From NCBI RefSeq assembly GCF_014356525.2, contig NC_052518.1, forward strand, positions 33,316,017 to 33,380,016: a stretch of DNA of 64,000 bases, given 5' to 3'. Made by a program: the position numbers and the translations under genes. Below are positions 1,933-63,994 of the stretch, in pieces. This DNA comes from Nilaparvata lugens. Lineage: Eukaryota > Arthropoda > Insecta > Hemiptera > Delphacidae. The number at the start of each line of letters is the position of its first letter. Position 1 is the first letter of the stretch. The notes under the pieces were generated by a model that was given only the letters and a program-made list of their open reading frames with translations, searched no databases and was not told the origin of the DNA.

Positions 1933-3914
1933 TTCATTCTATGTCAGAGTACTCTCTGCCGGGAGTATGTGAAACTGACTTTGAGGCTTCGGCATTAATT
2001 TTCAATGAGTGTTTCTTGGTTGTGTGTGTTTACAGGCCACCTGGGAGTGATATAGCAACTTTCGTGACCAATCTAGATCATCTTTTAACCTCGACTTTTG
2101 GAAGATTTGAGAGAATACTTGTTGTTGGCGATTTTAATGTGGATTTTTTGGGTGACTCTATTCCGGGACAGGAGGTATTGTCTGTCTTCAACTCTCATGG
2201 CTTGCGAGGTCTCATTACTGAGCCAACTCGTTTAGCGTCTGATTCATCATCACTATTGGATAATGGTTTTATCACTATGGAATGTGTTGACTCAGTCTCT
2301 GCAAAGGTCATTGGTCTCTCCTTGTCGGATCATTTAGCTCAGGAATTTGTGATCTCTATGGGGGAGGGATCTATGCAACATAGTGATTTTGTTTTGAGGA
2401 GATCCTTTTCCTCAAGAAATAAGTACAGGTTCTCTAACTTCCTCCTTGAATGTGACTGGGGCCCTCTTTATGCTGATCATGGTTCCTTTGATGAAAGGAT
2501 GGACTACTTCATGAGCAAGTATATTGATGCCTTCATCTGTGCTTTTCCATTGGTGAGGGTGAGAGCAAAAAATCATACAAGGAGGCTAGCTTGGTTGAAT
2601 CCTGAATTAAAGAGTCTCTGTGATATGAAGAGGGATTTGGAGTTATTCATTAGGACCTATCCTCGGGGCGAGTCTCTTAGAATTTTGTTTAAACTTGTCT
2701 CATGGAAGATTAGAACCCTCATTCAGTCACTCAAGGCTGGCTTCTCAAAGCGACTCATTTGTGACGCAAATAACAAGTCAAAAGTCATTTGGGACTTGAT
2801 AAAAAAAGAGGCAGCTCGCAGGACTACAACTTCTCATCTCCCAATTGTTGTAGATGGGCTCCCTCTGAATTCACCCACTGTTATTGCAAATGCATTCAAT
2901 GACTACTTTGTGGGTGGTATGAGTGATGTTGCTAGTACTGAAGTAGTGAATTTTTATGAATTGTTGGTGAATGCCAATTCGGGAAATGAAATTGTCTCTG
3001 GGATTCCTAGAATTTCGGAGGACGATTTGATAGCCATTGTTTCTAAGCTGAAGAATAAGATGTCAAGTGGCCTGGATGAGATACCATGTAAAATTTTCAA
3101 GGAGTTTCTCTATGAGGTGAGTGAACCTTTGACTCATTTGCTCAATCTCTCTAGTGATGTGGGCATTTTTCCATCCTGCTTCAAGGTAGCTAGGGTCAAG
3201 CCAATATTCAAGAAAGGATCCAAAAGCCAGGTTGGTAATTATAGGCCGATAGCCAATCTGTCATCGGTCTCCAAGCCCTGGGAGCGAGCAATTTATAATG
3301 CAATCCATGACCATTTTAAGAGCAACAATTTGTTTTCGAGCAGCCAATTTGGTTTCCAACAGAATAAATCAACAGTGGAGGCATTGGAATCGTTTGTGAG
3401 TGAAGTTTATTCCTCTCTGGATCAGGGTCGGAAGGTGTTGGGCTTCTTTGTGGACCTCAAAAAGGCATTTGATATGCTTGACCATAAAATTTTGATTGAG
3501 AAGCTATACTATTATGGTATCCGAGGCAATCTACTGAGTCTTGTAGAATCTTACTTGAGGGGTAGAAGTCAGGTGGTTGAGGTGAGGGCTTTTCAGGGGC
3601 AGCTGATTAACCAGATTTTCAAATCACATCCACGTTCCCTCTCTAAGGGAGTACCGCAGGGATCGATCTTGGGCCCCTTGTTGTTCCTTGTTTTCATGAA
3701 CGATTTCCCTTGTAATGTGCCGTCAGGGAGGTCTGTCTTATTTGCTGATGATGCAAATTTCTTAGTTTCGGCGAATAATGTCGATGAATTGCAGGCTATT
3801 GGTGATGCTGTTCTTGCTGAAATTACAAGGTGGTGTTCTGCAAATAAACTTGAAGTCAATATAGGCAAGACAACTTTCATTGAATTCTCAATCCACAGAC
3901 AACCTGTGAATCAG
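1933..3914 (+). pseudogene. LINE family F, copy 1: endonuclease plus RT, truncated at both ends
   Basis: ORF2 fragment of a non-LTR retrotransposon. The 5' part is an apurinic-type endonuclease (VYRPPGSD, GDFNVDF, SDH motifs) that already lacks its N-terminus. It is followed by reverse transcriptase with NYRPIANLSSVSK, FVDLKKAFDML, GVPQGSILGPLLF and the catalytic FADD box near 3738. The reading frame is open across the A-run near 2803, unlike copy 2. The 3' end stops abruptly at 3914, just after the RT core, where sequence switches into satellite. The 5' junction with satellite at 1933 is identical to that of the copy at 10354. The LINE entered once and the locus was then duplicated; this copy lost its thumb region and tail by recombination. 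An ATG in the satellite lies in frame upstream but is unrelated to the element. Confidence 0.9.
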
Positions 3915-4142
3915 TTTTTATGCTGGTCAATAGGATTTTTAACCCTAAACATCACCCCTAAACATCATTATATTTCAATGAAATTCCAACAATATGTTTA
4001 ATATGTGTAAATTATCAAGTATGCCAGATTAGAAACGAATCTGACAATTAGAAATACCAGGTCAATCACTTTTTGATAGGGGTTTTAACCCCTAACCACC
4101 TCCAAACATCATTATATTTTGATGAAATTCCAACAGTATGTT

Positions 4143-9900: not shown

Positions 9901-10353
9901 TGTGTAAATTATCCAGTATGCCAGATTTGAAACGAATCAGACAATTAGAAATACCAGGTCAATCACTTTTTATCCTGGTCAATTGGGTTTTTAACCTCTA
10001 ACCACACCTAATAGTCCACATATTCTTATAAAATTTTAATAGTATGAGCATGTGTGGATCATCCTGAGGTATGCCAAATTTGCAACGAATCGGACAATCA
10101 GAAATACCTGGTCGATCACTTTTTATGCTGGTCAATAGGATTTTTAACCCTAAACATCACCCCTAAACATCATTATATTTCAATGAAATTCCAACAATAT
10201 GTTTAATATGTGTAAATTATCAAGTATGCCAGATTAGAAACGAATCTGACAATTAGAAATACCAGGTCAATCACTTTTTGATAGGGGTTTTAACCCCTAA
10301 CCACCTCCAAACATCATTATATTTTGATGAAATTCCAACAGTATGTTTAATAT

Positions 10354-13194
10354 TTCATTCTATGTCAGAGTACTCTCTGCCGGGAGTATGTGAAACTGAC
10401 TTTGAGGCTTCGGCATTAATTTTCAATGAGTGTTTCTTGGTTGTGTGTGTTTACAGGCCACCTGGGAGTGATATAGCAACTTTCGTGACCAATCTAGATC
10501 ATCTTTTAACCTCGACTTTTGGAAGATTTGAGAGAATACTTGTTGTTGGCGATTTTAATGTGGATTTTTTGGGTGACTCTATTCCGGGACAGGAGGTATT
10601 GTCTGTCTTCAACTCTCATGGCTTGCGAGGTCTCATTACTGAGCCAACTCGTTTAGCGTCTGATTCATCATCACTATTGGATAATGGTTTTATCACTATG
10701 GAATGTGTTGACTCAGTCTCTGCAAAGGTCATTGGTCTCTCCTTGTCGGATCATTTAGCTCAGGAATTTGTGATCTCTATGGGGGAGGGATCTATGCAAC
10801 ATAGTGATTTTGTTTTGAGGAGATCCTTTTCCTCAAGAAATAAGTACAGGTTCTCTAACTTCCTCCTTGAATGTGACTGGGGCCCTCTTTATGCTGATCA
10901 TGGTTCCTTTGATGAAAGGATGGACTACTTCATGAGCAAGTATATTGATGCCTTCATCTGTGCTTTTCCATTGGTGAGGGTGAGAGCAAAAAATCATACA
11001 AGGAGGCTAGCTTGGTTGAATCCTGAATTAAAGAGTCTCTGTGATATGAAGAGGGATTTGGAGTTATTCATTAGGACCTATCCTCGGGGCGAGTCTCTTA
11101 GAATTTTGTTTAAACTTGTCTCATGGAAGATTAGAACCCTCATTCAGTCACTCAAGGCTGGCTTCTCAAAGCGACTCATTTGTGACGCAAATAACAAGTC
11201 AAAAGTCATTTGGGACTTGATAAAAAAGAGGCAGCTCGCAGGACTACAACTTCTCATCTCCCAATTGTTGTAGATGGGCTCCCTCTGAATTCACCCACTG
11301 TTATTGCAAATGCATTCAATGACTACTTTGTGGGTGGTATGAGTGATGTTGCTAGTACTGAAGTAGTGAATTTTTATGAATTGTTGGTGAATGCCAATTC
11401 GGGAAATGAAATTGTCTCTGGGATTCCTAGAATTTCGGAGGACGATTTGATAGCCATTGTTTCTAAGCTGAAGAATAAGATGTCAAGTGGCCTGGATGAG
11501 ATACCATGTAAAATTTTCAAGGAGTTTCTCTATGAGGTGAGTGAACCTTTGACTCATTTGCTCAATCTCTCTAGTGATGTGGGCATTTTTCCATCCTGCT
11601 TCAAGGTAGCTAGGGTCAAGCCAATATTCAAGAAAGGATCCAAAAGCCAGGTTGGTAATTATAGGCCGATAGCCAATCTGTCATCGGTCTCCAAGCCCTG
11701 GGAGCGAGCAATTTATAATGCAATCCATGACCATTTTAAGAGCAACAATTTGTTTTCGAGCAGCCAATTTGGTTTCCAACAGAATAAATCAACAGTGGAG
11801 GCATTGGAATCGTTTGTGAGTGAAGTTTATTCCTCTCTGGATCAGGGTCGGAAGGTGTTGGGCTTCTTTGTGGACCTCAAAAAGGCATTTGATATGCTTG
11901 ACCATAAAATTTTGATTGAGAAGCTATACTATTATGGTATCCGAGGCAATCTACTGAGTCTTGTAGAATCTTACTTGAGGGGTAGAAGTCAGGTGGTTGA
12001 GGTGAGGGCTTTTCAGGGGCAGCTGATTAACCAGATTTTCAAATCACATCCACGTTCCCTCTCTAAGGGAGTACCGCAGGGATCGATCTTGGGCCCCTTG
12101 TTGTTCCTTGTTTTCATGAACGATTTCCCTTGTAATGTGCCGTCAGGGAGGTCTGTCTTATTTGCTGATGATGCAAATTTCTTAGTTTCGGCGAATAATG
12201 TCGATGAATTGCAGGCTATTGGTGATGCTGTTCTTGCTGAAATTACAAGGTGGTGTTCTGCAAATAAACTTGAAGTCAATATAGGCAAGACAACTTTCAT
12301 TGAATTCTCAATCCACAGACAACCTGTGAATCAGTTGGAGTTTGAGGTTGAGGCAAAAGGGTTACAACCCTCTGATGCAACGGATTTTTTGGGGGTTTCT
12401 GTGGATCAGGGATTAACATGGTCCTCTCATGTTCAATCTCTTTCTAGGAGATTAAGCTCAGCTGCATATGCAATGTCCAGGCTCAGGAGGGTTTTAGTTC
12501 ATGAGGCAGTGATTTCTGCTTACTATGGATATTATGAGTCATTACTGTCTTATGGGATATTGCTGTGGGGAGGATCAAGATTCTCTGCCTCTATCTTCGG
12601 TGCCCAAAAGAGAGTCCTAAGAATCATATTTAAGAAGCCACCCCGTTTCTCATGTAGATCGCTATTCAAAGATAATAGAATTTTGACAGTTCCCAGTCTC
12701 TATTTGTACAATCTGGCAATCTTTGCTTATAAAATGAAAGATGATTGGCTGACAGGTGTGGATGTTCATCAACACAATACAAGATACAGGGGCTTAGTCA
12801 GAGTTGAACAGCACAGAACAGGGTTTTATGAGCACAACCCAAATTACATTGGCAAAAAAGTGTTCAACTGTTTACCACAGAATATTAAAGCTGCCCAAAC
12901 CCTAAACTCTTTTAAGACTAATCTAAAATGTTGGCTATTAGAGAAATGTTTCTATGAGTGGCGAAGTATCTTCGACCATTGAATGCGTTGCATTAGTTAT
13001 AAATGTTGTATGGTCTTAGATATAGGCTATTTGTTGTTTTATTATTTGTGTTATGATGTACGATATTGTTTTATTATGTACAAAATTGTTGAGTTGTGTC
13101 AATATGTTGTTTTCTCTTTATTGTATGACTATTGTCCATATGGTGCTTGTCACTATCCATGACAGTATAATAAACCAATAAACCAATAAACCAA
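10354..13194 (+). pseudogene. LINE family F, copy 2: endonuclease, RT, 3' UTR and 8-bp tail; one frameshift
   Basis: Longer copy of the LINE at 1933. It is 5'-truncated inside the endonuclease at the same base as copy 1. Reading is open to about 11273 in one frame and from about 11210 to 12982 in the next; the A-run near 11222 is one base shorter than in copy 1, which causes the shift. RT motifs include FVDLKKAFDML, GVPQGSILGP and FADD (about 12159), followed by a full thumb/C-terminal region ending at 12982. The 3' UTR runs to about 13164 and the element ends in a tandem AATAAACC tail, an 8-bp tail repeat as in CR1-type LINEs. A likely TAATAT target duplication flanks it. The RT motif series supports a CR1/Jockey-group LINE; the exact clade is not resolved. 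Confidence 0.9.
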
Positions 13195-49703: not shown

Positions 49704-50850
49704 TTTTTTATTTATTTATTTATTTATTTTCATCCACTGACCACCTGATAAAGGGGTATAAGGATATGTCAATTTTTCATTAGTCAAACATAAAATGTTA
49801 TCATCTACCTACGTAAACCTCCATTTTGAGGTTTATAATAATTTCTATACTCCTCCACTGAGTAAGCGCAAATGGACAGCAACTCTTTTTTTAATAAAAA
49901 TCTGAAAACCTTTCCAGAAGTATCTTTTATGTGAGAGGGCAATATGTTGTACATCCGGATACCTGAACTTCTTACACCTCTCTCATACATAGCACTTTGA
50001 TGAGCATCTTCTCTTAAATTATTTCTGAATCTGGTTGGATATTGATGAAATGTTTCGCCTGTATTTAATTCGTTTATGTGTTTCTTTATAAAGCAGACTG
50101 TTTCTAGGATATATTGACTTGGGAGTGGTAGAATACCAAGTGCTTTAAAGTAGGGCCGACAACTTGTTCTAATTGATTCTCCCATCATCACCCTCAATGC
50201 CCACTTCTGCAATCTGAACACTTCCACTACACTACTAGAATTTCCCCAAAAAATTATTCCATAGTTTAAATGGGAGTGGAACAAAGCGAAATATACACTC
50301 TTCAGAGCCATTGAATCAAGAGAAGTTTTCAGGTTTCTCAGAACAAAAATTGCTGAGATTAGTTTTGTTTTCAGGCTATCCAGATGGGGTCTCCAAGAAA
50401 GATCAGAGTCAATCACCACCCCAAGTACTCTTATACTATTTACAGATTCTATTTTATGACCATCAATTTTCAAGCTGCCTTCTTTAGTAGTTCGGAAAGG
50501 TATTTCTTTAGTTTTATCCTTATTCAAAATCAACATATTGGCTGATAGCCATTTTTGTAATTTAATAAGGGCTGTTTTGCTCTCTAGTTCAGCATTTGGC
50601 TGGCTATTGCTTTTCAGTAAGATGCTTACATCGTCCGCATACATAACACTCCTAGCTGGATCAAGGTAGGAAGGCAAGTCATTTATATAGAGAACAAAAA
50701 GCAGGGGGCCGAGCACTGATCCCTGGGGGACCCCACTTCTTGTTCTCATCCAATCAGAATGATACTCATACAAGTGGGAGTCAATAACAACCTGCTGATA
50801 CCTTTTATCAAAATATGAAAAGAACCAGTAGAGAAGGTTCAAGATTTCAA
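49704..50850 (-). pseudogene. LINE G: RT C-terminal half, 5'-truncated
   Basis: Reading from about 50850 down: FDKRYQQVVIDSHLYEY, SGVPQGSVLGPLLFVLYINDL, VMYADDVSIL (catalytic, about 50635), LNKDKTKEI, RVLGVVIDSDLSWRPH, LHLNYG-type segment and FWGNSSS, ending at 49805. The remaining part to 49704 is a short 3' UTR and an (AAAT)n tail (plus-strand TTTA run 49704-49732). The endonuclease and RT fingers are absent. It belongs to the CR1/Jockey group but is distinct from families A-F. It cuts into the 3' part of the hAT relic; no clear target duplication was found. Confidence 0.87.
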
Positions 50851-51345
50851 GGAAGCTTTTTTGCTCGAGATCCCCCTCCCCCCTCTCCCCCCTCGTCCAT
50901 CCCTCCACCCCTTCCCCCCGCCTGTAGGGCGGGGGGTGTTCTAAAAATAGATTTCCCCCTCCCCCTGTCCAGTGGAGGTGAGGGGGAGAGAGAGAGAGGG
51001 AGATATATCTTTCTCTCTCTTTCTAAAAATAGATTTCCCCTTCCCCCTTTCCGAAAGGAAAGGAGATAAGAATCAATTGAGAAATTCTCTCCCAGTATAG
51101 ATGAGAGGGAAAAATTCCTTTGGTGTCAAATTAAAGTGAATTCATATTTCTACATCTAATGCTATACTGACAAATTGAAGTGAATCCATTTCGCTCCAAT
51201 GGATTGATGACAGGTTCAAGAGATCTCCTTCTTTTACTCATGACATCTCTTTCCCGCACCCTTTCCGAAAGGAGATAAGAATCAATTGAGAAATTCTCTC
51301 CCAGTATAGATGAGAGGGAAAAATTCCCTTGGTGACAGATTAAAG
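50851..51345. other. Pyrimidine/purine-rich low-complexity DNA
   Basis: 50870-51060 is dominated by CCCCCTCC and GAGAGAGA stretches with short inverted motifs (CCGCCTGTAGGGCGGGGGG). 51061-51180 and 51280-51400 repeat each other (CTCTCCCAGTATAGATGAGA) and lead into the 44-bp array. Confidence 0.7.
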
Positions 51346-51884
51346 TGAATCCATATTTCTACATCTAATGCTATACTGACAAATTGAAGTGAATTCATAT
51401 TTCTACATCTAATGCTATACTGACAAATTGAAGTGAATTCATATTTCTACATCTAATGCTATACTGACAAATTGAAGTGAATTCATATTTCTACATCTAA
51501 TGCTATACTGACAAATTGAAGTGAATTCATATTTCTACATCTAATGCTATACTGACAAATTGAAGTGAATTCATATTTCTACATCTAATGCTATACTGAC
51601 AAATTGAAGTGAATTCATATTTCTACATCTAATGCTATACTGACAAATTGAAGTGAATTCATATTTCTACATCTAATGCTATACTGACAAATTGAAGTGA
51701 ATTCATATTTCTACATCTAATGCTATACTGACAAATTGAAGTGAATTCATATTTCTACATCTAATGCTATACTGACAAATTGAAGTGAATTCATATTTCT
51801 ACATCTAATGCTATACTGACAAATTGAAGTGAATCCATATTTCTACATCTAATGCTATGGTGACAGATTAAAGTGAATCCATAT
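51346..51884. repeat. 44-bp tandem array, about 12 copies
   Basis: The unit begins GAATTCATATTTCTACATCT and continues AATGCTATACTGACAAATTG AAGT; the period is exactly 44 bp. Central copies are identical; the outer copies carry GAATCC and GACAGATTAAAG variants, as expected from expansion by unequal exchange. Confidence 0.95.
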
Positions 51885-52667: not shown

Positions 52668-52940
52668 CTAATGCAGGAAGCAAATCTTTGAGGTAGATTT
52701 GCTTCCTGCATTCCTTATTTTTAAAATTACACACCGACCGTGTTTATTGGTATGCTCCCTTGCGCTGATAATGGGGTAGGGTACATCCTCTTTCAACTCT
52801 CTCAGTGGCACCCAGGGTTTGGGTGCAGGCTGATTGATGAGTTGAACAGAGTCCATCTCCCTCCTCTCATCCTCCTCTGCCCTCTGCACTTCCTTCATCA
52901 GGGTGACAAGTGATGACTTGTTCTCCACTGCAGCACGTTT
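52668..52940 (-). CDS. Small Polinton-associated protein, possible OB-fold, 5' exon unresolved
   Basis: The frame is about 90 codons with no ATG near its start. On the minus strand it is preceded by a TTTTTCAACAG acceptor (exon start 52940), so the N-terminus may come from an upstream exon. The charged helix EVQRAEEDERREM is followed by LRELKEDVPYPIISA and TNKHGRCVILKI, a pattern (L..L..d.pY.I..a....tK.G..v.l.i) that I recall from many small hemipteran proteins resembling single-stranded-DNA-binding OB folds near mobile elements. That is recollection, not a search. Its last 14 codons run through a perfect hairpin, so the C-terminus may be altered. Confidence 0.4.
   Translation of the reverse strand, partial: KRAAVENKSSLVTLMKEVQRAEEDERREMDSVQLINQPAPKPWVPLRELKEDVPYPIISAREHTNKHGRCVILKIRNAGSKSTSKICFLH
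52670..52712. repeat. Perfect hairpin, 18-bp stem
   Basis: Left arm AATGCAGGAAGCAAATCT (52670-52687), loop TTGAGGT, right arm its exact complement (52695-52712). It overlaps both the 3' end of the minus-strand small ORF and a plus-strand splice acceptor at 52676. Confidence 0.92.
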
Positions 52941-53072: not shown

Positions 53073-53440
53073 AACACTAATATCTTGTAATTCAATTGTA
53101 TCTCTAATCAGTTCAAATAATATTTCCTTGCTATCAAATAATTTATGCATGAGCGATTACTTTTAACACTAATATCTTGTAATCCAATTGTATCTCCAAT
53201 CAGTTCAAATAATATTTCCTTGCTATCAAATAATTTATGCATGAGCGATTACTTTTAACACTAATATCTTGTAATTCAATTGTATCTCTAATCAGTTCAA
53301 ATAATATTTCCTTGCTATCAAATAATTTATGCATGAGCGATTACTTTTAACACTAATATCTTGTAATCCAATTGTATCTCTAATCAGTTCAAATAATATT
53401 CAGATCAAATAATTTATGCATGAGTGATTACTTTAAACAA
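53073..53440. repeat. 92-bp tandem array, four copies
   Basis: AACACTAATATCTTGTAAT starts copies at 53073, 53165, 53257 and 53349, an exact 92-bp spacing. Each contains CAAATAATTTATGCATGAGC. The fourth copy has an internal deletion. Non-coding. Confidence 0.95.
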
Positions 53441-53473
53441 TAATTCTTTGCTATCAAATAATAATAATCAAAG

Positions 53474-53543
53474 ACTTGTATGTGTACAGATTTTTTTTTC
53501 CAATGATCGATTGTTTTATAAAAAAATCTGTACACATACAAGT
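53474..53543. repeat. Perfect hairpin, 24-bp stem and 22-base loop
   Basis: Left arm 53474-53497 (ACTTGTATGTGTACAGAT then T-run) and right arm 53520-53543 are exact reverse complements. The total of 70 nt has the size and shape of a microRNA precursor or a strong transcriptional stop structure. Confidence 0.92.
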
Positions 53544-53934: not shown

Positions 53935-54246
53935 CTACGCCCCAATAAAACCCATGATTCTAATTTTATAATTCAAATCAATGTTAGATCCTTCAACATG
54001 GAAGCAAGAACCTAATTTTTCATAATCTCTCACAAAAGTTAAATATTGTAGATTTGTCCATCCTTTTTCTGCTAACTGTGCCAATATATCTAGGTGCGTG
54101 TCCAAGAGTTCACTTAATTTATATTGATATCTCATTTTTTCTAAAGGAACAGAATGGTATTCACTTAATTGATTAAAATGTCTATCTATAATGAATTGAA
54201 CGCTCGAATCTGAAGACTTGTTCTCCACACCAAACACATTATCCAT
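53935..54246 (-). CDS. Hypothetical 103-aa protein
   Basis: ATG at 54246, stop at 53935. The product is predicted mostly helical and moderately acidic (SSDSSVQFIIDRHFNQL, YKLSELLDTHLDILAQLA, WTNLQYLTFVRDYEKLG). No transmembrane segment, signal peptide or zinc site is visible. The regular amphipathic helices could suit a small helical-bundle interaction domain, but no family is recognised. It lies on the same strand as the BIR gene, 535 bp beyond it, in the left accessory part of the Polinton-like element. Confidence 0.5.
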   Translation of the reverse strand: MDNVFGVENKSSDSSVQFIIDRHFNQLSEYHSVPLEKMRYQYKLSELLDTHLDILAQLAEKGWTNLQYLTFVRDYEKLGSCFHVEGSNIDLNYKIRIMGFIGA

Positions 54247-54653
54247 CTCAGTACACTAGCTTGATGTTGTATCAGCAAAGACAAGATGACTACCAACAGA
54301 TTACCTTGCTCTAGCTTATTATTATTATTATGAAAAGCACACTCTAGCGATAATTTATTGTACTTTATAGCACTCTATTTCTAATAAATATTTCAACCCA
54401 TAGAGGAATAGCATTCTCGATTCAGTTATTAAATATTTCATTGTTTTCACAGCATTTTCTCACCTCTCAACTCGAGTTCCGAACCTCATAACCAGTTGAG
54501 CTCTCGTCGAGACAACACAGCTGAGAGGAATCATAGGGTGGTCACCTGAGAGGAATCAATCATAGCATAATCATCTACACCTGTATCCTGCTATCTACAC
54601 CTGTATCCTGCTATCTACACTCGAGGAGATTCACGCAACATCAAGCACTACAT
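54247..54653 (+). other. Probable 5' non-coding exon of the polymerase transcript
   Basis: No ORF. Ends at CTACAT/GTAAGTAC (54653/54654), a strong donor. ACACCTGTATCCTGCTATCT is tandemly repeated (about 54577-54617). TCAGTT at 54422 is a possible initiator without a convincing TATA. The inferred partner is the acceptor at 55505, four bases before the polymerase ATG. Confidence 0.45.
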
Positions 54654-54680
54654 GTAAGTACAGTTTTACTTTGATTTTAT

Positions 54681-54770
54681 CCTCTGAGGAGGAAAATAGT
54701 CCTCCGAGGAGAGGTTTTCTCCTCCGATGACTATTTTTCTCCTCCGAGGACAGGTTTTCTCCTCCGAGGA
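54681..54770. repeat. Five quasi-palindromic CCTCCGAGGA boxes at exact 20-bp spacing
   Basis: CCTCTGAGGA (54681), CCTCCGAGGA (54701), CCTCCGATGA (54721), CCTCCGAGGA (54741) and CCTCCGAGGA (54761) lie precisely 20 bp apart, with A/T-rich spacers (GGTTTTCT, TATTTTTCT). Regular spacing of about two helical turns suggests an iteron-like protein-binding array. It begins 27 bp inside the predicted intron and ends 12 bp past the BIR stop codon. Confidence 0.85.
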
Positions 54771-54781
54771 GAAAAAACCTT

Positions 54782-55408
54782 CTACAATATACTGCATGCA
54801 TGCGATTTATCTTTAGAATATGCTATATCCGGAACATCCAAGCCCCGCTCTTCTTTCTCACACTCATCGTATAAACAAAACGGTAAATGAATTACTTTTT
54901 CAGTTGGTTCACCGATAATATATTTACAATAGACACATTGCAGATATAATGGATTTTTATGTAAGAAATAACCATTTCTCGCAAAATACTCTGCTTTATT
55001 GCGTAATGATTTACAAAAGTCACAATGTAGATGGTGTGGAGGTAGTTTTTCAAAGTACTCTCCTTGGACGGATGAATCTTCTGGCATATTAGTAAATGAT
55101 AAATATCTTTCTTCATATAATCGTAGAATATTATTATCGTAATTCTCCTCTTCAATTGTTATATTTCCTTTCCTTCTACAGTTCGGGCTAAACTTTGCAT
55201 GTTCGTTGGCTACAACATCATTTTGCTCCCAATCTCCTATACAAACTGAACAAAATACGCAGCGCACAATATCCGGTTCACTTGCGAATACAAAACCGTC
55301 TTTCGCCATATTTTCTGCCGACAAATTCTGACTAGTTTTTGTCCATTTTTTATCGAATGTTAATAATCTCAATCTTTCATGTAACATTATCTGTCCTTGT
55401 GATAACAT
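54782..55408 (-). CDS. BIR-domain (inhibitor-of-apoptosis-like) protein
   Basis: From ATG 55408 the product is 208 aa. Residues about 12-77 form a canonical BIR zinc fold: RLLTF near the start, GFVFASEPDIVRC, then Cys50, Cys53, His70 and Cys77 with C-x2-C-x16-H-x6-C spacing and the GDWEQND loop. A second BIR-like unit (about 101-178) begins YLSF and has NGYFLHKN, then C158-x2-C161-x12-H174-x3-C178, shorter than canonical and so degenerate. No RING or CARD follows. BIR proteins of insects and insect DNA viruses bind and restrain caspases or IAP antagonists, and an anti-apoptotic role is inferred. The frame is intact. It is antisense to the polymerase transcript and within its predicted intron. 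TCAGTT at 55426-55431 (minus strand), 18 nt from the ATG, is a probable initiator. Confidence 0.85.
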   Translation of the reverse strand: MLSQGQIMLHERLRLLTFDKKWTKTSQNLSAENMAKDGFVFASEPDIVRCVFCSVCIGDWEQNDVVANEHAKFSPNCRRKGNITIEEENYDNNILRLYEERYLSFTNMPEDSSVQGEYFEKLPPHHLHCDFCKSLRNKAEYFARNGYFLHKNPLYLQCVYCKYIIGEPTEKVIHLPFCLYDECEKEERGLDVPDIAYSKDKSHACSIL

Positions 55409-55418
55409 CGTGAATGCC

Positions 55419-55440
55419 AATTCACAACTGATTGTGAATT
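55419..55440. promoter_or_regulatory. Palindrome over the BIR start region
   Basis: AATTCACAA (55419-55427) and TTGTGAATT (55432-55440) are perfect 9-bp arms around CTGA. The minus-strand initiator TCAGTT of the BIR gene lies at its centre, so it could be an operator-like site; a weak TATA-like TTAATA sits about 33 bp upstream on the minus strand. Confidence 0.5.
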
Positions 55441-55509
55441 ACATTCCTTTACACATACTATTAATTGGCTATGCCATCCTGATCATTATTCTTTTGTTTT
55501 TTCAGTATC

Positions 55510-58500
55510 ATGCCGAGGGAACGCAGACTTCGTGGGATCAATTCCGCAGCAGCCCGCCATCGCATCAGCCTCGATGAGGAGGATATCGACATCACCAGCG
55601 TGCTCGAGAGCTCGAAACGTCGAGTTTTCGATATAATTAGGGAACATGCCGCACGCTATGATGGCAATGTTAAATGGTTCATCGTCCTCAACGTTTTGCT
55701 GTATAAATTAGTGGTGATGGATGACAAGCAGGTTGGTGACTCTGTCTCATCTCTAATAAATCTACATAGTTACTCCAACATAGCACTAAATGTGCTTGAG
55801 AACTATGAAGAGTTTAATGAGCATTTCATGTTAGCTGTGAGAAAAATCCTCTCATCTTTTGAAAATTTTGTAAGATATGGGAGTGGATGGGTGCTAAAGA
55901 AAATTGAATCACTGGATGTGAACGTGATTAAATTTAATCCTATATACACATCCAGTTTCATTCAGACACCCCAGTTTTTGAAAAACAAAAAATGTATTAT
56001 AAATGTGAAAAATCTCTCTGACGAAAAATGCTTTTTATGGTCAGTGCTCGCGTATTTCCATCAGAAGCCAAGGAACTCGAACTTAAGTGTAAAGTATTTG
56101 AGCAAGTTTGCTCACACACTTAATACGCGAGGTGTAAATTTCCCGGTGACGACACGCGATATTAAGAAATTTGAAATACTCAATCCGGACATTGCAATTC
56201 ACGTCATCGCATACGACAACAAAAAGTTTTTCCCCTTCCGTACAAGCATTTTCCGCACGCGTAAACACCAAATTAATCTTTTAATGCTAAAAGGCGATGC
56301 AGGAAAAACTCATTTCTGTTTAGTAAATACCGCGAACGGGAAAAACGGGCTATCTCGTCTTCTCTCCCACCTTTCAAAATCCCACGGTCAAGTACATGTT
56401 TGTAATTTCTGTTTTCACCGGTTCACATCAAACAAATCTAAGAATTGTGATGGTAAAGCAAATTTGTTGAAACATGTGGAACTTTGTTCCAAGTTTGAAT
56501 CTCAGCGCGTTTCATATCCTAAACGCGGAGAGACAATTAAATTCAAGAAACTAGGCGCGACGTTGAAGAAAAAGTACACCATTTACGCGGATTTAGAAAC
56601 ATACGTTGTTAATATCGATAATGATGATGATGATGATTCCGATTCTGATGAAATTACTCGTAGTTACACAAAGAAAACGGCGCGACATATTCCCTGCGGG
56701 TATTGTTTCGTTGTTATCGATGTTAACGGCGAAATCGCTCACGGACCTGTACTCCATAGATCGAGTAGTTTAGACGAAAAAATCATGGAGAAATTTCTTC
56801 AGGAAATTACAGATCTCGGTGACATTTTGTATGAGGATATGAAACGAGAAATTCCGATGCAAGCTTTATCCGAGAGTCAAGAGCGTGAATTTCAAAATTC
56901 AGTAAACTGCGGGCTTTGTGCTGAACCGTTTTTAGACAGCGATATTAAATGTCGTCACCACGCGCATGAAACCGGTAATTACTTGTGTGCGGCACATGTT
57001 TCTTGTAATTTAACAGCTCGTACTCCGGAGTACATATCGTGTTATTTTCATAATTTCTCCGGTTTTGATTCGCATTTTATTCTAAAATCGCTCGGTAAAT
57101 GTAAAAAAGAAATTTCCTGCATCGCAAATACGTCAGAGAGATTTTTGACACTTTCAGTAGGCAAAATTAAATTTTTAGATTCCTACAAGTTTATGTCTGA
57201 ATCCTTGGAAGTATTGGTGCGTAATTTGGTAGAGAGTACAGATATGGAAAAGAAGTTCGAACGATTATTTTCGGTGTTTGATGATCCACCTCGCGAACAC
57301 AGACAGCTCTTGTTGAAGAAAGGAGTATATCCCTACTCGTACATGAGCTGTCCCGAAAAATTCGCGGAAACATCGCTTCCCCCCATTGAATGTTTTCATA
57401 ACGACTTAACTGATACACCTCTGTCTCGCGAAGAATATGAGCATGCGCAAAGAGTGTTCTCAACATTCAAGCTGAAAAATCTGGGTGAATATCACGATTT
57501 TTATTTATGTTTGGACGTAATGCTATTAGCGGTAGTTTTTGAATCCATGAGGTCTACGCTTTTTAGCTCATATGGCCTCGATGTGACCCATTTTGTTTCC
57601 CTTGCCCACTTCACCTGGAATTGCATGCTGAAACACACTAAAGTCGAACTGGAATTACTAACAGATCCGGACATGCATCTTATGTTTGAGGCGGGAATGA
57701 GAGGCGGAGTCTCATTTATCGGTAAACGTTATTGTGAGGCGAATAACAAACATCTACCCGAAACATACGATCCTTCAAAACCGTCTAATTATCTGCTTTA
57801 TATCGATGCAAACAGTTTATACTCGGAAGCTATGAGCCGAAGCTTGCCTGTTGGAAATTTCAAATTCCTCTCAGAGGAAGAAATTTCCAGCCTTGATTTC
57901 GCGAATTTGGACAGCAATTCAGAAACCGGGTATATAATAGAATGCGATCTCAAGTACCCCCAAGAGTTGCATGATAAGCATGCGAGCTTCCCCCTCGCTC
58001 CTCTCCACCAAACGCCCCCGCGCGAATTGCTGTCGAACTACCAAACAAATGAGAACGGTCAAACTGGAACCAAAAAGCTCATGAACACACTTTTCGACCG
58101 TGAAAAGTACATTGTTCACTATGTCAATTTAAAGCTCTACCTCCAGCTCGGTTTGAAATTATTGAAAGTGCATCGCGTCATTAGCTTTTCCCAATCTCCC
58201 TGGCTGAAAAGCTACATCGACTTTAATATCCGGAATAGACAGAACGCGAAAAATAAATTTGAAATATCCTTCTTTAAGGCCTGTTGCAATCTGATATTTG
58301 GCAAGACAATTCAGAGTAGTCGTAAGCAAATGAATGTTAAAATTATCACGGATGAAAAACGGTTAGATAAGTACATTTCAAACCCGCTATGTAAACGCTG
58401 GCAAATAATTAGTCCGAACGTGATCGCGGTTTTCTCTCGTAAGTTGGAACTTAAAATGAACAAGCCTGTCTATTCCGGCTTCAGTGTACTGGAGTTGAGT

Positions 58501-59075
58501 AAATTCCATATGTACGATTTTTTCTATTGTAAATTACAAAAAATTATACCGTGGGATCGTATAGAATTGTGCATGACTGACACCGACAGTTTTCTTCTTA
58601 ACCTTAAAGTCGAAGATGTGTATCAGTTGATTAGAGAAAATTTGACCCTTTTCGATACTTCTAACTATCCACCTTCCCACCCTTGCTTTTCCATGGAGAG
58701 GAATAAAGTTGTAGGAAAGTTCAAGGATGAGACGGGTCAAAGCCTGTCCATAGATTTCTCGGACTTAGATCCAAACTTTACTCATATTTAGTTTGTAACG
58801 AGAATGAAGAACTTGTAAATAAATGTATAGCAAAGGGTGTACAGAGCGGAGTAAAATGTAGAAAGCTTAATTTTAATTTATATATGAAATCATTGTTTGA
58901 ACGTAGTGAACATGTAGAAAAATTTAATATGTTAAGATCGTATAATCACACCATGTACCAGGTTGAATGCGCAAAAATCTGTTTGAGCCCTTATGATGAT
59001 AAGAGGTATATTGCTGAGAATGGTGTTGATACTCTCCCTTTCGGTCATTATAGTCTCAACACTCTAAATGATTGA
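55510..59075 (+). pseudogene. Family B (protein-primed type) DNA polymerase of a Polinton-like element, one frameshift
   Basis: ATG 55510 follows a splice acceptor. The N-terminal region contains a Cys/His cluster (HVCNFCFHRF...C...H...C, residues about 296-325). The 3'-5' exonuclease has Exo I YADLETYV (about 357-365), Exo II NFSGFD (about 514-519) and Exo III YHDFYLCLD (about 660-668). A CGLC...CRHH...C zinc cluster lies between Exo I and Exo II. Polymerase motif A is YIDANSLYSEA (about 764), motif B KACCNLIFGK (about 923) and motif C DTDS (1024-1027). All catalytic residues are present. Near 58755-58770 the frame shifts; zero frame stops at 58791, while the conserved C-terminus (YSYLVCNEN, SLFERSE, LSPYDDKR) continues in another frame to 59075. 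The gene replicates the element genome in intact relatives; this copy is probably inactive unless the shift is an assembly error. Confidence 0.92.
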
Positions 59076-59080: not shown

Positions 59081-59136
59081 ATGTGCCATGACAACCATCC
59101 AACACCACTGATTTTGATTTGACTGTTGTAAATATC

Positions 59137-60090
59137 ATGAATATTATTAGATCTAAGTTAGCTTTAGAGCTTCATAGCGTGCCGCGTGTGAACTATCCCA
59201 CTCGCAAATATGAGTTGAAAAGTGAAAAAGACTTGCTTCAAGCCGATCTCATTGAGATGACAAGTTTATCACGTTTTAATAAGGGTTACAAATATATCTT
59301 AGCTGTTATTAATTGTTTTTCAAAATTTGCATATTGTGTACCATTAAAAGACAAGACAAGCCAATCTGTATTTAACGCTCTCGAGCCAATTATTTCTAAA
59401 AATAAAGGAGTTAAGCTGTTCCAAACAGATCAAGGAACAGAATTCTTTAATTTAAAAGTTAAAGCATTATTAGATAGATATAGTATTAAACATTATCATG
59501 TTTTTACTGATAAGAAAGCCTCCATAGTTGAAAGGTTTAATAGAACACTTAAAGCAAAAATTTATAGATATTTAACTGAACATGGAACCAAAAACTGGTC
59601 ATCACAACTAGACAGATTAGTTCGAGATTATAATGCAACAATGCATTCATCCATTAGAATGAAACCTAAAGATGTGACGAAAAAAGATCGTAATCATGTT
59701 TTAATGTCATTGAATTCTGCATTCAATAGACGATATAAATTGAAAAATTCAAAACCGAAATTTAAGCTAGGAGATGTTGTACGAATCTCAAAGAAAAGGG
59801 TTCTTTTCGATAAATCTTATAACATAAACTGGAGCGCAGAGTATTTTGTAATTCATTCTATATTTCCTTCTCAACCTGTAACGTATAGCTTGCGAGATCT
59901 AAACGGAGAAGTAATTAGTGGCAGGTTTTATGCAGAAGAAATTAAAAAAACACAATTAAATGAATCGGAGAGACAAGTGTATTTGATTGAAAAAATATTA
60001 AAACGAGATAAAAAAGGACTGCTTGTGAAATGGATTGGGTTTTCAACTCCTAGTTATATTAGTAAGGATCAACTATTAGATGAAAAATAA
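59137..60090 (+). CDS. Retroviral-type DDE integrase with chromodomain-like C-terminus
   Basis: 317 aa from ATG 59137. The rve catalytic core shows LQADLIEM (Asp37), QTDQGTEFF (Asp98) and SIVERFNRTLK (Glu132), a D-60-D-33-E arrangement; YNATMHSSIRMKP is the usual downstream signature. KFKLGDVVRISKKR and an SH3-like stretch follow, and the end (about 275-317: VYLIEKILKRDKKGLLVKW, then IGF) resembles a chromodomain that could direct integration to modified histones. The N-terminal HHCC zinc finger appears to be missing or very short. Polintons encode this class of integrase (c-integrase), which inserts the linear element with a 6-bp duplication. The frame is intact and lies 61 bp downstream of the polymerase end. 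Confidence 0.92.
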   Translation: MNIIRSKLALELHSVPRVNYPTRKYELKSEKDLLQADLIEMTSLSRFNKGYKYILAVINCFSKFAYCVPLKDKTSQSVFNALEPIISKNKGVKLFQTDQGTEFFNLKVKALLDRYSIKHYHVFTDKKASIVERFNRTLKAKIYRYLTEHGTKNWSSQLDRLVRDYNATMHSSIRMKPKDVTKKDRNHVLMSLNSAFNRRYKLKNSKPKFKLGDVVRISKKRVLFDKSYNINWSAEYFVIHSIFPSQPVTYSLRDLNGEVISGRFYAEEIKKTQLNESERQVYLIEKILKRDKKGLLVKWIGFSTPSYISKDQLLDEK

Positions 60091-60407: not shown

Positions 60408-60607
60408 TCATTTTAATCTGAAGTTTTATTTGCTAAGGCTCAAGCGTTCTCGTGAAGAGGGTGCGGGTGAGAAACTTCTATCAGTGCATTGAAAGGGGAG
60501 AGCGCTTGCATCCCGATGTGATAAGCTATGGTGTCTAGCCCACAATCTCTTCCTCCTTGATAACTTATCAGTTCCTTATCAGATCGCATGCTGTACACGT
60601 GACTAAC

Positions 60608-61285
60608 ATGATTCCGATAGTAAATTTCGACAATGTTATAAGAGAGAAAGAAATGCCAACATGGTGTAAAAATGGTAAGTTATTACCACATAATGCAAGG
60701 ATCCTTATAATAGGCTCTTCAGGTTGTGGCAAGACCAATTTACTATTTAATTTAATTTTTTCAAAGAATGGGTTGAGATTTAAAACTATATACTTGCACA
60801 CGAAGAGCGAGTATCAAGATAAGTACTTGTTTTTGAGAAAAGTCTTTTCAAAAATGAAGGGTATTGAATTTCATATAAACAGCAATTCGGAATCTATAGC
60901 TCACCCCAACAAAATTCAACAATATTCTCTTGTCATTTTCGATGACTTCCAACTTAATCACGTGCCTCAAATAAGAGAATATTTTACCATGGGTCGACAT
61001 CGTAATATTGACACTGCATATTTAATTCAGAGTTATGGGGCCACACAGAAACATTTCACTAGGGACAACGCAAATATGATTATAATCTTCAAGGTAGATT
61101 TATTGAGTCTGAAATTAATTCACAGAGATCATGTTGGAGCAGATATTCCTTATAAAGATTTCGTTAAACTTTGTCATACAGTTTGGAATCGTAAACCTCA
61201 TAATTTTCTAACTATTATGACCGAGTGTGGAATTAATAGCGGGAAGTACCGAGATTCGCTCGATACGTTTCTTACCGTTCAGTAG
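60608..61285 (+). CDS. FtsK/A32-type genome-packaging ATPase
   Basis: 225 aa from ATG 60608 (an in-frame TTG lies upstream, but the alignment-like start IPIVNFDN favours this ATG). Walker A GSSGCGKTN is at about 36-44, Walker B LVIFDDF at about 108-114, followed by MGRHRNIDTAYLIQSY, an arginine-finger/sensor-like segment typical of the packaging ATPases of Polintons, adintoviruses and poxvirus A32-like proteins. It is inferred to drive DNA into the capsid. The frame is intact and appears full length. Next gene begins 22 bp downstream. Confidence 0.88.
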   Translation: MIPIVNFDNVIREKEMPTWCKNGKLLPHNARILIIGSSGCGKTNLLFNLIFSKNGLRFKTIYLHTKSEYQDKYLFLRKVFSKMKGIEFHINSNSESIAHPNKIQQYSLVIFDDFQLNHVPQIREYFTMGRHRNIDTAYLIQSYGATQKHFTRDNANMIIIFKVDLLSLKLIHRDHVGADIPYKDFVKLCHTVWNRKPHNFLTIMTECGINSGKYRDSLDTFLTVQ

Positions 61286-61306: not shown

Positions 61307-62212
61307 ATGTTGTCATACAGCAGGAAGCTGAATAGAAAGGAGGTTGGTTTAATCGAAAAGATTAAGAAATTGAGAAAAGTAATTAGAGAGAAGCATAAAA
61401 GCTTAGTCAATTTTGAAAAGCGATCGGAGGAATATAATAGGAAAACGCTCTCCCCGTTAATAGAGCCCATAATTGAACTGGGAAAAAACAAATTCTCACA
61501 CTCTGATGTAAAACCAAAAAAGGAACAGGTAAAAGAGGAGAGTATGGAAATTGATGATAATGAGGAGGGAGATGAACAGAGTTATGAGAGTTCAGCAGAC
61601 AATTTTTTAAGCTCGACTAAATTTGAAAACAGTTTACTTGGTTCTAGCAGAAACGACAATGTGCTGTCACAATATCTAAAAACGTTTCATGCGGAAAAAC
61701 AGAATAATTCAATCAGTTATGGAATTTCATATAATTCTAAAGATGACGTGTATTATATTGGTAATCAGCAAGTAATATTTGTTGATGGTTATATAGATAT
61801 TGATAGTGAAAGATTTCGATTAACACACGGTCTACTTGAGTTATTATTCAGTGCGAGACCAAACTCAAATCTTTATAATGAGAGAGATCTGGATAAGTAT
61901 AAAAAAATCTTAACACTTACAGGTATACATTTAGATCGAAGAGGCTATGTTAAACGAAATCAGGGAATTAAATCGCAAATGATTCAAAAGTTATTTCCCA
62001 GTAAAAAAATTAGTAAAAAGAAGGGTTGGGGTTTATTGAAATTTGCAAAAAATAATTCTCATGATAGAATTTATCAATACTTTGATAATTTTGACGAATT
62101 AGTGGAAAGATTAAATTTACTCTATTCCTCAAAAGCTAGTGGGAACACTGGGCATGATGTGGAAATTGCAAGTATAATTGAAGAGCTAAAAGAAGCAAAA
62201 TTAATTGTTTAG
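61307..62212 (+). CDS. DUF8207-like Polinton protein, full-length copy
   Basis: 301 aa from ATG 61307. N-terminal basic coiled coil (KIKKLRKVIREKHKSL), an acidic/serine linker (ESMEIDDNEEGDEQ), then a conserved globular region, about residues 145-245: DDVYYIGNQQVIFVDG, FRLTHGLLELLFSARPN and YKKILTLTGIHLDRRGY, then KKGWGLLKF. I recall this pattern as the DUF8207 domain common in arthropod Maverick-type elements; the name is from memory. Function is unknown, though position after the ATPase suggests a virion or morphogenesis role. From residue about 60 on it is duplicated at 62413-63147. Confidence 0.75.
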   Translation: MLSYSRKLNRKEVGLIEKIKKLRKVIREKHKSLVNFEKRSEEYNRKTLSPLIEPIIELGKNKFSHSDVKPKKEQVKEESMEIDDNEEGDEQSYESSADNFLSSTKFENSLLGSSRNDNVLSQYLKTFHAEKQNNSISYGISYNSKDDVYYIGNQQVIFVDGYIDIDSERFRLTHGLLELLFSARPNSNLYNERDLDKYKKILTLTGIHLDRRGYVKRNQGIKSQMIQKLFPSKKISKKKGWGLLKFAKNNSHDRIYQYFDNFDELVERLNLLYSSKASGNTGHDVEIASIIEELKEAKLIV

Positions 62213-62219
62213 TGTCACG

Positions 62220-62441
62220 ATGACTCTACATCGATTCGGACGAATTGATACACCTAGCGGAGCTAGTCTTACGTGTGATATTGACTCGATAACACAGAAG
62301 ATAATCGAATCGATAAATCAGCAAGGAATCAGCGAAGCTGTGAAATTTTATTTAGATTCGCAAATAACCAAACTCGTTTCGGAAAATACAAAGAATATTG
62401 GAGTGAGCATAATTGAAAAAAAACAAATTCTCACACTCTGA
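62220..62441 (+). pseudogene. Truncated first copy of the coiled-coil gene
   Basis: Identical to the first about 65 codons of the gene at 63155, then interrupted at the duplication joint (about 62417), after which it reads a few out-of-frame codons and stops at 62441. Start ATG 62220 lies 7 bp after the stop of the preceding gene. Confidence 0.85.
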
Positions 62442-63147
62442 TGTAAAACCAAAAAAGGAACAGGTAAAAGAGGAGAGTATGGAAATTGATGATAATGAGG
62501 AGGGAGATGAACAGAGTTATGAGAGTTCAGCAGACAATTTTTTAAGCTCGACTAAATTTGAAAACAGTTTACTTGGTTCTAGCAGAAACGACAATGTGCT
62601 GTCACAATATCTAAAAACGTTTCATGCGGAAAAACAGAATAATTCAATCAGTTATGGAATTTCATATAATTCTAAAGATGACGTGTATTATATTGGTAAT
62701 CAGCAAGTAATATTTGTTGATGGTTATATAGATATTGATAGTGAAAGATTTCGATTAACACACGGTCTACTTGAGTTATTATTCAGTGCGAGACCAAACT
62801 CAAATCTTTATAATGAGAGAGATCTGGATAAGTATAAAAAAATCTTAACACTTACAGGTATACATTTAGATCGAAGAGGCTATGTTAAACGAAATCAGGG
62901 AATTAAATCGCAATTGATTCAAAAGTTATTTCCCAGTAAAAAAATTAGTAAAAAGAAGGGTTGGGGTTTATTGAAATTTGCAAAAAATAATTCTCATGAT
63001 AGAATTTATCAATACTTTGATAATTTTGACGAATTAGTGGAAAGATTAAATTTACTCTATTCCTCAAAAGCTAGTGGGAACACTGGGCATGATGTGGAAA
63101 TTGCAAGTATAATTGAAGAGCTAAAAGAAGCAAAATTAATTGTTTAG
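62413..63147 (+). pseudogene. Second, N-terminally truncated DUF8207-like copy
   Basis: Carries the acidic linker and complete conserved domain but lacks the first about 60 residues and has no ATG at its start; the first internal ATG lies in the acidic linker. One Met-to-Leu difference from the full copy. It could be made only as a shorter protein, if at all. Confidence 0.8.
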
Positions 63148-63154
63148 TGTCACG

Positions 63155-63994
63155 ATGACTCTACATCGATTCGGACGAATTGATACACCTAGCGGAGCTA
63201 GTCTTACGTGTGATATTGACTCGATAACACAGAAGATAATCGAATCGATAAATCAGCAAGGAATCAGCGAAGCTGTGAAATTTTATTTAGATTCGCAAAT
63301 AACCAAACTCGTTTCGGAAAATACAAAGAATATTGGAGTGAGCATAATTGAAAGAGAACATATTCTAAGCACGTTACAAAATTTCAGTGCTAATATCGAT
63401 AAAGCTATTGGAGAGAGAACTCAAACTCTAGAGAGTGCTTTAGGAGAAGTGAAAACTTTAACAGACAGCTTTTCATCTCAGTTGCTCAGTATTAACAACG
63501 ATAAAGTTGATAAGGCTTATTTAGATGAAAAATTAAAAGCCGTATCAGATAAAATTAAGAATTTGGAGGTGCTGGACAGAAACTATCTCAATACTAAATT
63601 GAAACAACTTAGTACAGAAATTTTTACTAAAGTAAATGAAACTCACCCATCGGGAATTGATAAGCAATATTTAGAATCTACTTTGCAGAAATTGATTAGT
63701 TCTTCATTAACAAAGGAAGAGTTTGAAAAACGATTATCTGAAATGGCGAGTGCAATAAAAGCTAATATTATGGAGGGTATTGAGCAGTTTATTACAAAAG
63801 ATGCTATTGCTATTCTGATTAATCAAATTGCAGAAAAGTATGCAACTAAAAATGATATTGGAGATTTTATTAAGAAAAACGAGATGGCAGACGCTGTGAA
63901 AAGCGTTCGTGATGAAATAGCTGAGGCAATTAAAAATTCGGAAGAGGGTGCTGTCATGAGACTGCAATGTTCGGCCCCTTCATTGACTACCTAA
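63155..63994 (+). CDS. Coiled-coil/fibre-like Polinton protein
   Basis: 279 aa from ATG 63155, 7 bp after the preceding stop, so it is probably co-expressed. N-terminus LHRFGRIDTPSG, then repeated 40-50-residue helical units with internal similarity (DKVDKAYLDEKLKAVSDKI, VLDRNYLNTKLKQLSTEI, GIDKQYLESTLQKLISS), typical of trimeric or fibrous virion proteins. No catalytic motif. The last residues (after NSEEG) look unlike the repeat and the frame ends at 63994, so a frameshift or a truncated end is possible. Function is not known. Confidence 0.65.
   Translation: MTLHRFGRIDTPSGASLTCDIDSITQKIIESINQQGISEAVKFYLDSQITKLVSENTKNIGVSIIEREHILSTLQNFSANIDKAIGERTQTLESALGEVKTLTDSFSSQLLSINNDKVDKAYLDEKLKAVSDKIKNLEVLDRNYLNTKLKQLSTEIFTKVNETHPSGIDKQYLESTLQKLISSSLTKEEFEKRLSEMASAIKANIMEGIEQFITKDAIAILINQIAEKYATKNDIGDFIKKNEMADAVKSVRDEIAEAIKNSEEGAVMRLQCSAPSLTT

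Follow-up and report, generated by a model that had tools for sequence, protein, structure and literature searches.

The window analysed here, a stretch of 64,000 nucleotides from the brown planthopper Nilaparvata lugens, contains the left part of a Polinton element whose polymerase gene is preceded by a gene for a BIR/IAP-like protein on the opposite strand (Table 1). The 226-bp part of the left terminal inverted repeat (TIR) is followed by a 44-bp tandem array, which is common to the right end in inverted orientation. The inverted copy of the TIR ends at L010:7260, equivalent to window position 70243 and outside the window; as the left TIR begins at 50827, the element is about 19.4 kb in size. 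It appears to interrupt a LINE reverse-transcriptase ORF at a 6-bp target site (window 49805-50908, L010:7259-7735), an ORF that was recognised by an RVT_1 Pfam match on the window side and judged by eye on the other.

Table 1 Features of the Polinton element, with positions in window coordinates.
Feature	Position	Strand	Remarks
Target-site duplication, left copy	50821..50826		AGAACC; right copy just past the right TIR, beyond L010:7260
Left TIR	50827..51882		Begins AGTAGAGAAGG; 99% identity with the right TIR over 226 bp
Small ORF, left arm	52668..52928	-	86 aa; matches in 13/19 BIR regions, some of which end short of here
Small ORF, left arm	53935..54246	-	103 aa; whole or partial matches in 15/19 BIR regions
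Predicted non-coding first exon of PolB	54422..54653	+	Opens with an initiator-like TCAGTT, 232 nt upstream of the donor
Predicted 5'-leader intron of PolB	54654..55505	+	852 bp, GTAAGT...TTTTTTCAG; holds the BIR gene antisense
20-bp repeats	54675..54794	.	TCCTCCGAGGAGAGGTTTTC-type; between donor and BIR stop
BIR/IAP-like gene	54782..55408	-	ATG start, 208 aa; canonical BIR at residues 14-78; C-terminal CaaX box CSIL
Degenerate BIR-like motif of the 208-aa protein			About residues 139-178
Spacer	55409..55505	.	97 bp; PolB acceptor on +, TCAGTTG/TTAGTTG on -, a possible BIR transcription start
Family-B DNA polymerase (PolB)	55510..58791	+	1093 aa; relatives with PF03175
Retrovirus-like (rve) integrase	59119..60090	+	PF00665, E 3.5e-12
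A32-like packaging ATPase	60557..61285	+	PF04665, E 2.3e-10
301-aa ORF	61307..62212	+	No Pfam match; most of it repeated in tandem at 62413-63147
284-aa ORF	63140..63994	+	No family above cut-off
PLA2, protease, 228-aa ORF, major capsid protein, 332-aa ORF	Beyond the window, in L010	+	PLA2 to major capsid protein all on this strand

The Polinton PolB assignment rests on relatives, since the Pfam scan of the window PolB itself gave no match to PF03175: this ORF has 505 relatives at E ≤ 1e-3, and several of the 120 listed carry PF03175. A sequence search of the PDB gave no match for the window PolB. Its frame departs from that of the family near residue 1076 and stops early, so this copy of the element may be inactive. 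Beyond the window, L010 encodes a phospholipase A2 (PLA2) domain (PF08398) and a double-jelly-roll (DJR) major capsid protein (PF21738, E 2.7e-89). It also encodes an adenain-like protease, matched by PF00770 (E 1.6e-4) in a short frame of 120 aa, and, where a minor capsid protein would be expected, a 228-aa ORF with no Pfam match. The element therefore has the TIRs, 6-bp target duplication, PolB (via relatives), rve integrase, A32-like ATPase, DJR capsid protein and adenain-like protease found in Polinton/Maverick elements (proposed Adintoviridae), and a virus-like way of life fits its capsid, ATPase, protease and PLA2 genes. What sets it apart is a BIR gene that lies in the leader of PolB on the opposite strand, a gene that is not named in the descriptions of Polinton/Maverick genes in the portions of the literature available.

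Several repeats were observed in and around the element. The left arm holds 92-bp tandem repeats (window 53073-53448) and a 35-bp inverted repeat that lacks a spacer and is 86% complementary (window 53474-53543). The partial tandem copy of the 301-aa ORF (window 61307-63147) was reported as 935 bp apart, with 99% identity over 300 nt. Elsewhere in the window, two LINE copies lie a few kb apart (1857-4001 and 10278-12982), with frames that are near-identical by eye, the second one being split. At the right end of the element, the 332-aa ORF (L010:4576-5574) has a weak C-terminal BIR remnant with a Pfam E of 0.002, below the cut-off, its best aligned piece comprising 24 residues.

The BIR protein and its structural relatives

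The original prediction described an intact 208-aa frame with BIR zinc spacing on the minus strand and proposed a search with the Pfam BIR model, and both points were borne out. The zinc ligands, read from the sequence, are spaced exactly as C50-x2-C53-x16-H70-x6-C77, and the protein matches the Pfam BIR family with an E of 3.8e-21 and 75.8 bits, against a cut-off of 22.9. By its domain content, the protein is a member of the IAP/BIR proteins. C50, C53, H70 and C77 are invariant in an alignment of eight element-type BIR proteins, as are W60, D64 and E69, which we take to be the IBM groove positions of XIAP-BIR3; the aromatic position of the groove varies among element-type BIRs, being F or Y, and is C in a sister subfamily described below. 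The degenerate second BIR that had also been predicted is weakly supported: a C-terminal block, NG[YF]FLH...YLQCV, with C-x2-C and then H, is kept at about 50% identity in the element-type alignment, but the C-terminal 101 aa on their own gave a Pfam BIR E of 0.14, below the cut-off. A RING domain, which is common in IAPs and not required, had no match in the Pfam scan of the 208-aa protein, and PHROGs and NCBIfam gave no match for either the window BIR protein or PolB.

For structural comparison, we used a model based on 15 sequences (mean pLDDT 61.8) and set aside one based on four (35.6). Across residues 21-80 of the model used, the blockwise pLDDT is 79-88, and its top three Foldseek matches in the PDB were to XIAP-BIR1 (with TAB1) and DIAP1-BIR1, including DIAP1-BIR1 with drICE and Reaper peptide; the XIAP-BIR1 and DIAP1-BIR1 rows had E-values of 5e-5 to 2e-4 at 34-38% identity. 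Survivin and NAIP were close behind (E 8e-5 to 4e-4), and the NAIP BIRs gave the highest score for the window BIR when the PDB was searched by sequence. The window BIR model thus shares the fold of DIAP1-BIR1 and XIAP-BIR1, whereas the whole protein differs from DIAP1 and XIAP in combining one canonical and a degenerate second BIR with a predicted prenyl anchor and no RING match.

Survivin and NAIP are not classical caspase inhibitors, and NAIP is an inflammasome sensor. Their matches to the model, together with the top PDB sequence score of the NAIP BIRs, are consistent with an alternative in which the protein is not anti-apoptotic at all, acting instead in another pathway as a decoy or scaffold, either in the manner of survivin or as a competitor of host IAPs in immune signalling, or as a membrane assembly helper. 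The lack of a RING points the same way, as do the CaaX box, which suggests a membrane location, and a rate of change above that of PolB, as is often seen in host-interaction proteins. We consider this alternative somewhat unlikely, given that XIAP-BIR1 and DIAP1-BIR1 hold the top three places among the structure matches and that most of the viral BIR proteins that have been tested are anti-apoptotic.

Viral IAPs are known from baculoviruses, entomopoxviruses and African swine fever virus (A224L). Likened by description, the window protein resembles them as a small viral protein with a canonical BIR and a likely anti-apoptotic role; unlike them, it is encoded in a transposon-like provirus, inside a predicted intron, and has a CaaX end and no RING match.

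Pairing of BIR and PolB across element copies

A genome search with the window BIR protein returned 1469 first-look candidates, of which the best 150 were scored (79-100% identity). The frame has no internal stop in 142 of these and a stop inside in the other 8, a proportion biased toward intact copies because the best-scoring candidates were taken. A chance frame mistaken for a BIR gene is ruled out by these scored copies. Twenty regions were fetched and 19 taken as BIR copies; the region of L022 begins at the BIR start, leaving 18 in which the neighbouring gene could be assessed, and in all 18 a PolB start lies head-to-head with the BIR gene at a distance of 90-106 bp.

We also searched the genome with PolB and scored 42 of 4705 first-look candidates. 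By coordinates, 29 of these have an opposite-strand BIR match within 91-141 bp, and tblastn detected opposite-strand BIR sequence upstream of each of the remaining 13, so that all 42 have BIR sequence, intact or disrupted, in a head-to-head position to PolB. The upstream BIR sequence is partial at L030 and L031, where it is present only from residue 50 or 53, and at L032, where it begins at residue 31. The 13 extra copies are PolB hits whose BIR is absent from the list of 150, a choice that biases them toward broken BIR genes; in 7 of them the BIR reads to the family end, and in 6 it is broken. The pair is also kept in all six members of a sister subfamily (L043-L048), in which PolB pieces are 67-79% and the BIR 52-54% identical to those of the window.

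Judged by this recurring layout, the BIR gene is a regular accessory gene of the Polinton family in N. lugens, which upholds the prediction that it belongs to the element, antisense to PolB, and should recur in other copies. The host does have other BIR genes, such as a BIR-BIR-RING gene at L002, and it might be supposed that the window gene is a host IAP lying near or inside a decayed element by accident. This is extremely improbable: the head-to-head layout of the 42 scored PolB copies extends over many contigs and rules out an accidental association, and the TIRs and target duplication enclose the BIR gene.

A predicted PolB leader intron around the BIR gene

A splice donor at 54654 and an acceptor at 55505 had been predicted ahead of the PolB ATG. 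Both sites are there, with GT at 54654-54655, AG at 55504-55505 and the ATG at 55510, and their sequences are conserved across copies and in the sister subfamily. GTAAGT occurs at the matching place in all 20 other BIR copies as well as the window, and a CAG acceptor precedes the PolB start in the window and in all 18 testable copies (for L029 it was recognised in the alignment, the automatic match having settled on a preceding ATG). Five of the six sister-subfamily loci have the donor, as CAT|GTAAGT, which is missing in L043, and all six have the acceptor, 19 nt before the PolB ATG. The 13 extra copies have the acceptor in 12 cases and a homologous donor in 8, and the stretches examined for the others may end too soon. 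The predicted intron encloses the entire BIR gene, which is on the opposite strand; the distance from the donor to the BIR end varies among copies from 72 to 189 bp.

Initiator-like motifs accompany both genes. TCAGTTG or TTAGTTG lies 23-43 nt before the BIR ATG in the window and in all 18 copies with a BIR-PolB spacer, and TCAGTT lies 231-236 nt before the donor in the window and in 11 of the 20 other BIR copies, being absent there in the other 9. We take the TCAGT-type motif to be the initiator of arthropod promoters.

With start codons only about 100 bp apart and an initiator-like motif for the BIR gene in the spacer between them, BIR and PolB could instead be a divergent pair on a short bidirectional promoter, in which case PolB would have no intron and the GT and AG would be there by chance. 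Divergent pairs are common in compact viral genomes, which favours this alternative, and so does the failure to see a homologous donor in 5 of the 13 extra copies and one of the six sister loci. The splice sites are nevertheless more conserved than their flanks, which argues against it: invariant columns make up 13 of 15 at the acceptor against 32 of 82 elsewhere in the spacer, and 8 of 9 at the donor against 41 of 111 in the flank, the donor figure being biased in the donor's favour because the sites were located by searching for GTAAGT. As both splice sites also recur at matching places in the sister subfamily, we regard a divergent pair with no intron as rather unlikely. Comparative evidence supports the predicted 5'-leader intron of PolB.

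A CaaX box at the C-terminus

We examined 45 BIR frames, of which 35 reach the family C-terminus, 8 are cut short and 2 (P0003 and P0125) are partial. All 35 full-length frames have a CaaX end, in the form of CSIL, CSIM, CSLL or CTLL; they comprise 21 of 21 frames in a first set, 7 of the 13 extra copies, 4 of the 6 sister loci, and P0001, P0002 and P0124 out of five proteins. P0001 and P0002 closely match copies in N. lugens, and their independence is uncertain. P0124 shares 46% identity with the window BIR and reaches 61% in the best of 150 places scored for it in this genome, and therefore probably comes from another species. P0003 is a BIR protein filed under Klebsiella pneumoniae, from a contig of 464 bp, and probably stems from contamination with insect DNA.

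A C-terminal Cys-a-a-X is a prenylation signal (the CaaX rule), and the BIR protein would most likely be prenylated and held at membranes through this box. A search of the literature available for CaaX and the BIR domain together gave no match.

Selection on the BIR gene and exchange between elements

Pooled dN/dS values (Nei-Gojobori, nine of 20 copies) were 0.39 for the BIR gene over 36 pairs and 0.19 for PolB residues 1-320 over 28 pairs, in both cases from pairs that are not independent; L029 was left out for PolB because its PolB frame is short. The BIR gene thus changes faster than PolB. In near-identical pairs, which have very few changes, the BIR values were 1.63 (L016/L017) and 0.96 (L018/L021).

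These values bear on a further alternative, that the overlap is mainly regulatory, with BIR RNA and PolB pre-mRNA forming duplexes that lead to mutual repression or small-RNA silencing. The position of the entire BIR gene inside the predicted intron is compatible with such a role, and the nesting has persisted despite divergence of the coding and spacer sequences. The BIR protein seems to matter in any case, however, judging by its dN/dS of less than 1 and its conserved C-terminal end, and a mainly regulatory overlap appears clearly improbable.

Synonymous differences indicate that BIR types have been swapped between elements. Between the window and L018, dS is 0.57 in the N-terminal half of the BIR gene against 0.017 in the C-terminal half and 0.03 in PolB, and between L017 and L025 it is 0.13 for the BIR gene against 0.44 for PolB. 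In addition, the BIR gene is duplicated in tandem, wholly in L027 and partially in L018; the extra copies do not themselves adjoin PolB, and they show that the BIR cassette can multiply within an element.

Other BIR genes and searches for relatives

At six further loci (L004-L009), the BIR genes share 38-42% identity with that of the window across 45-53 residues. They adjoin a PLA2 gene in five loci and a protease/minor-capsid-like pair in the sixth, and these neighbouring genes are 49-61% identical to those of the window element, so a second Polinton family of N. lugens has a different BIR gene, in another position. None of the six L004-L009 BIR frames has a CaaX box, and those of L004 and L007 look cut short. 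The BIR-BIR-RING gene of L002 looks like a host IAP and has a RING, unlike the window BIR.

A BIR tree of 20 rows, which was built without viral IAPs and took in one RING row and poor second-BIR rows from a motif search, had long branches and one starred inner branch out of 16; at this resolution, we draw from it no origin from a baculovirus or an insect IAP. In IMG/VR, two alignments used as queries gave no BIR relative, and the window PolB alone gave no relative. The PolB alignment recovered one Polinton (L001, 15.4 of 17.4 kb), which had no BIR match in the 10 ORFs scanned of 17 listed.

Among the matches listed in a literature search of titles and the beginnings of abstracts, with few subscription papers covered, nothing concerned BIR/IAP genes in Polintons. 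Compared with the literature found, the location of a BIR gene in the PolB leader, its regular presence across a Polinton family and the CaaX end of its protein appear to be new. The portion of PMC11071296 available mentions adintovirus relatives with homologs of anti-apoptotic genes, so that an anti-apoptotic accessory gene in the adintovirus group would have precedent.

A possible role in delaying cell death

Taking these results together, we favour as probable, by a modest measure, the reading that the element carries a RING-less IAP-type accessory gene in the PolB leader intron, whose product is anti-apoptotic, membrane-held and expressed from its own promoter, and delays cell death during replication. 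The BIR gene would be transcribed early, from a promoter in the approximately 100-bp spacer before the PolB acceptor, and its product would be prenylated through the CaaX box and so anchored in membranes. There it could bind Hid/Reaper-type proteins with IAP-binding motifs, or effector caspases, and such binding would delay apoptosis for as long as the element is being replicated and packaged. The PolB and BIR RNAs might also interfere with each other as a result of their antisense nesting. In this scheme the splicing, the promoter, the early timing, the prenylation, the binding partners and the anti-apoptotic effect are all read from motifs, fold and family. A candidate partner of this kind exists in the host, in that a Hid-like RHG homolog with an IAP-binding motif is described for N. 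lugens in the portion of PMC8620624 available.

Several observations weaken the proposal of a membrane-held anti-apoptotic protein. The protein has no RING, survivin and NAIP match it nearly as well as XIAP and DIAP1, and the groove aromatic is Cys in the sister subfamily. Moreover, the gene is broken in 6 of the 13 extra copies and evolves faster than PolB, and the donor is found in 8 of those 13. The BIRs of L004-L009 lack the CaaX box, and the PolB frame of the window element ends early.

A broader and rather doubtful reading is that the gene represents a new type of viral IAP, prenyl-anchored, RING-less and antisense in a polymerase leader intron, which would form a survival/replication switch and an exchangeable cassette, with at least two separate acquisitions by Polintons in one insect. 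If it is true, every PolB pre-mRNA would carry a survival gene in antisense, and vice versa.

The presence of such a gene suggests that cells infected by the element may be kept alive during its replication, and it bears on whether metazoan Polintons still live as infecting viruses: a conserved gene that is apparently aimed at host cell death, and lies beside virion genes, is one that a virus would keep and for which a pure transposon would have little use. RNA interference is effective in the brown planthopper, a much-studied pest, so the expression and function of the BIR gene are directly testable.

Counts of IAP genes in such genomes may be inflated by Polinton BIR copies. Among the 150 scored BIR copies, 57 lie on contig C15, against 14.6 expected by length, an excess that may partly reflect ascertainment because the query came from C15, and 14 lie on the 10-Mb contig C16, against 1.4 expected.
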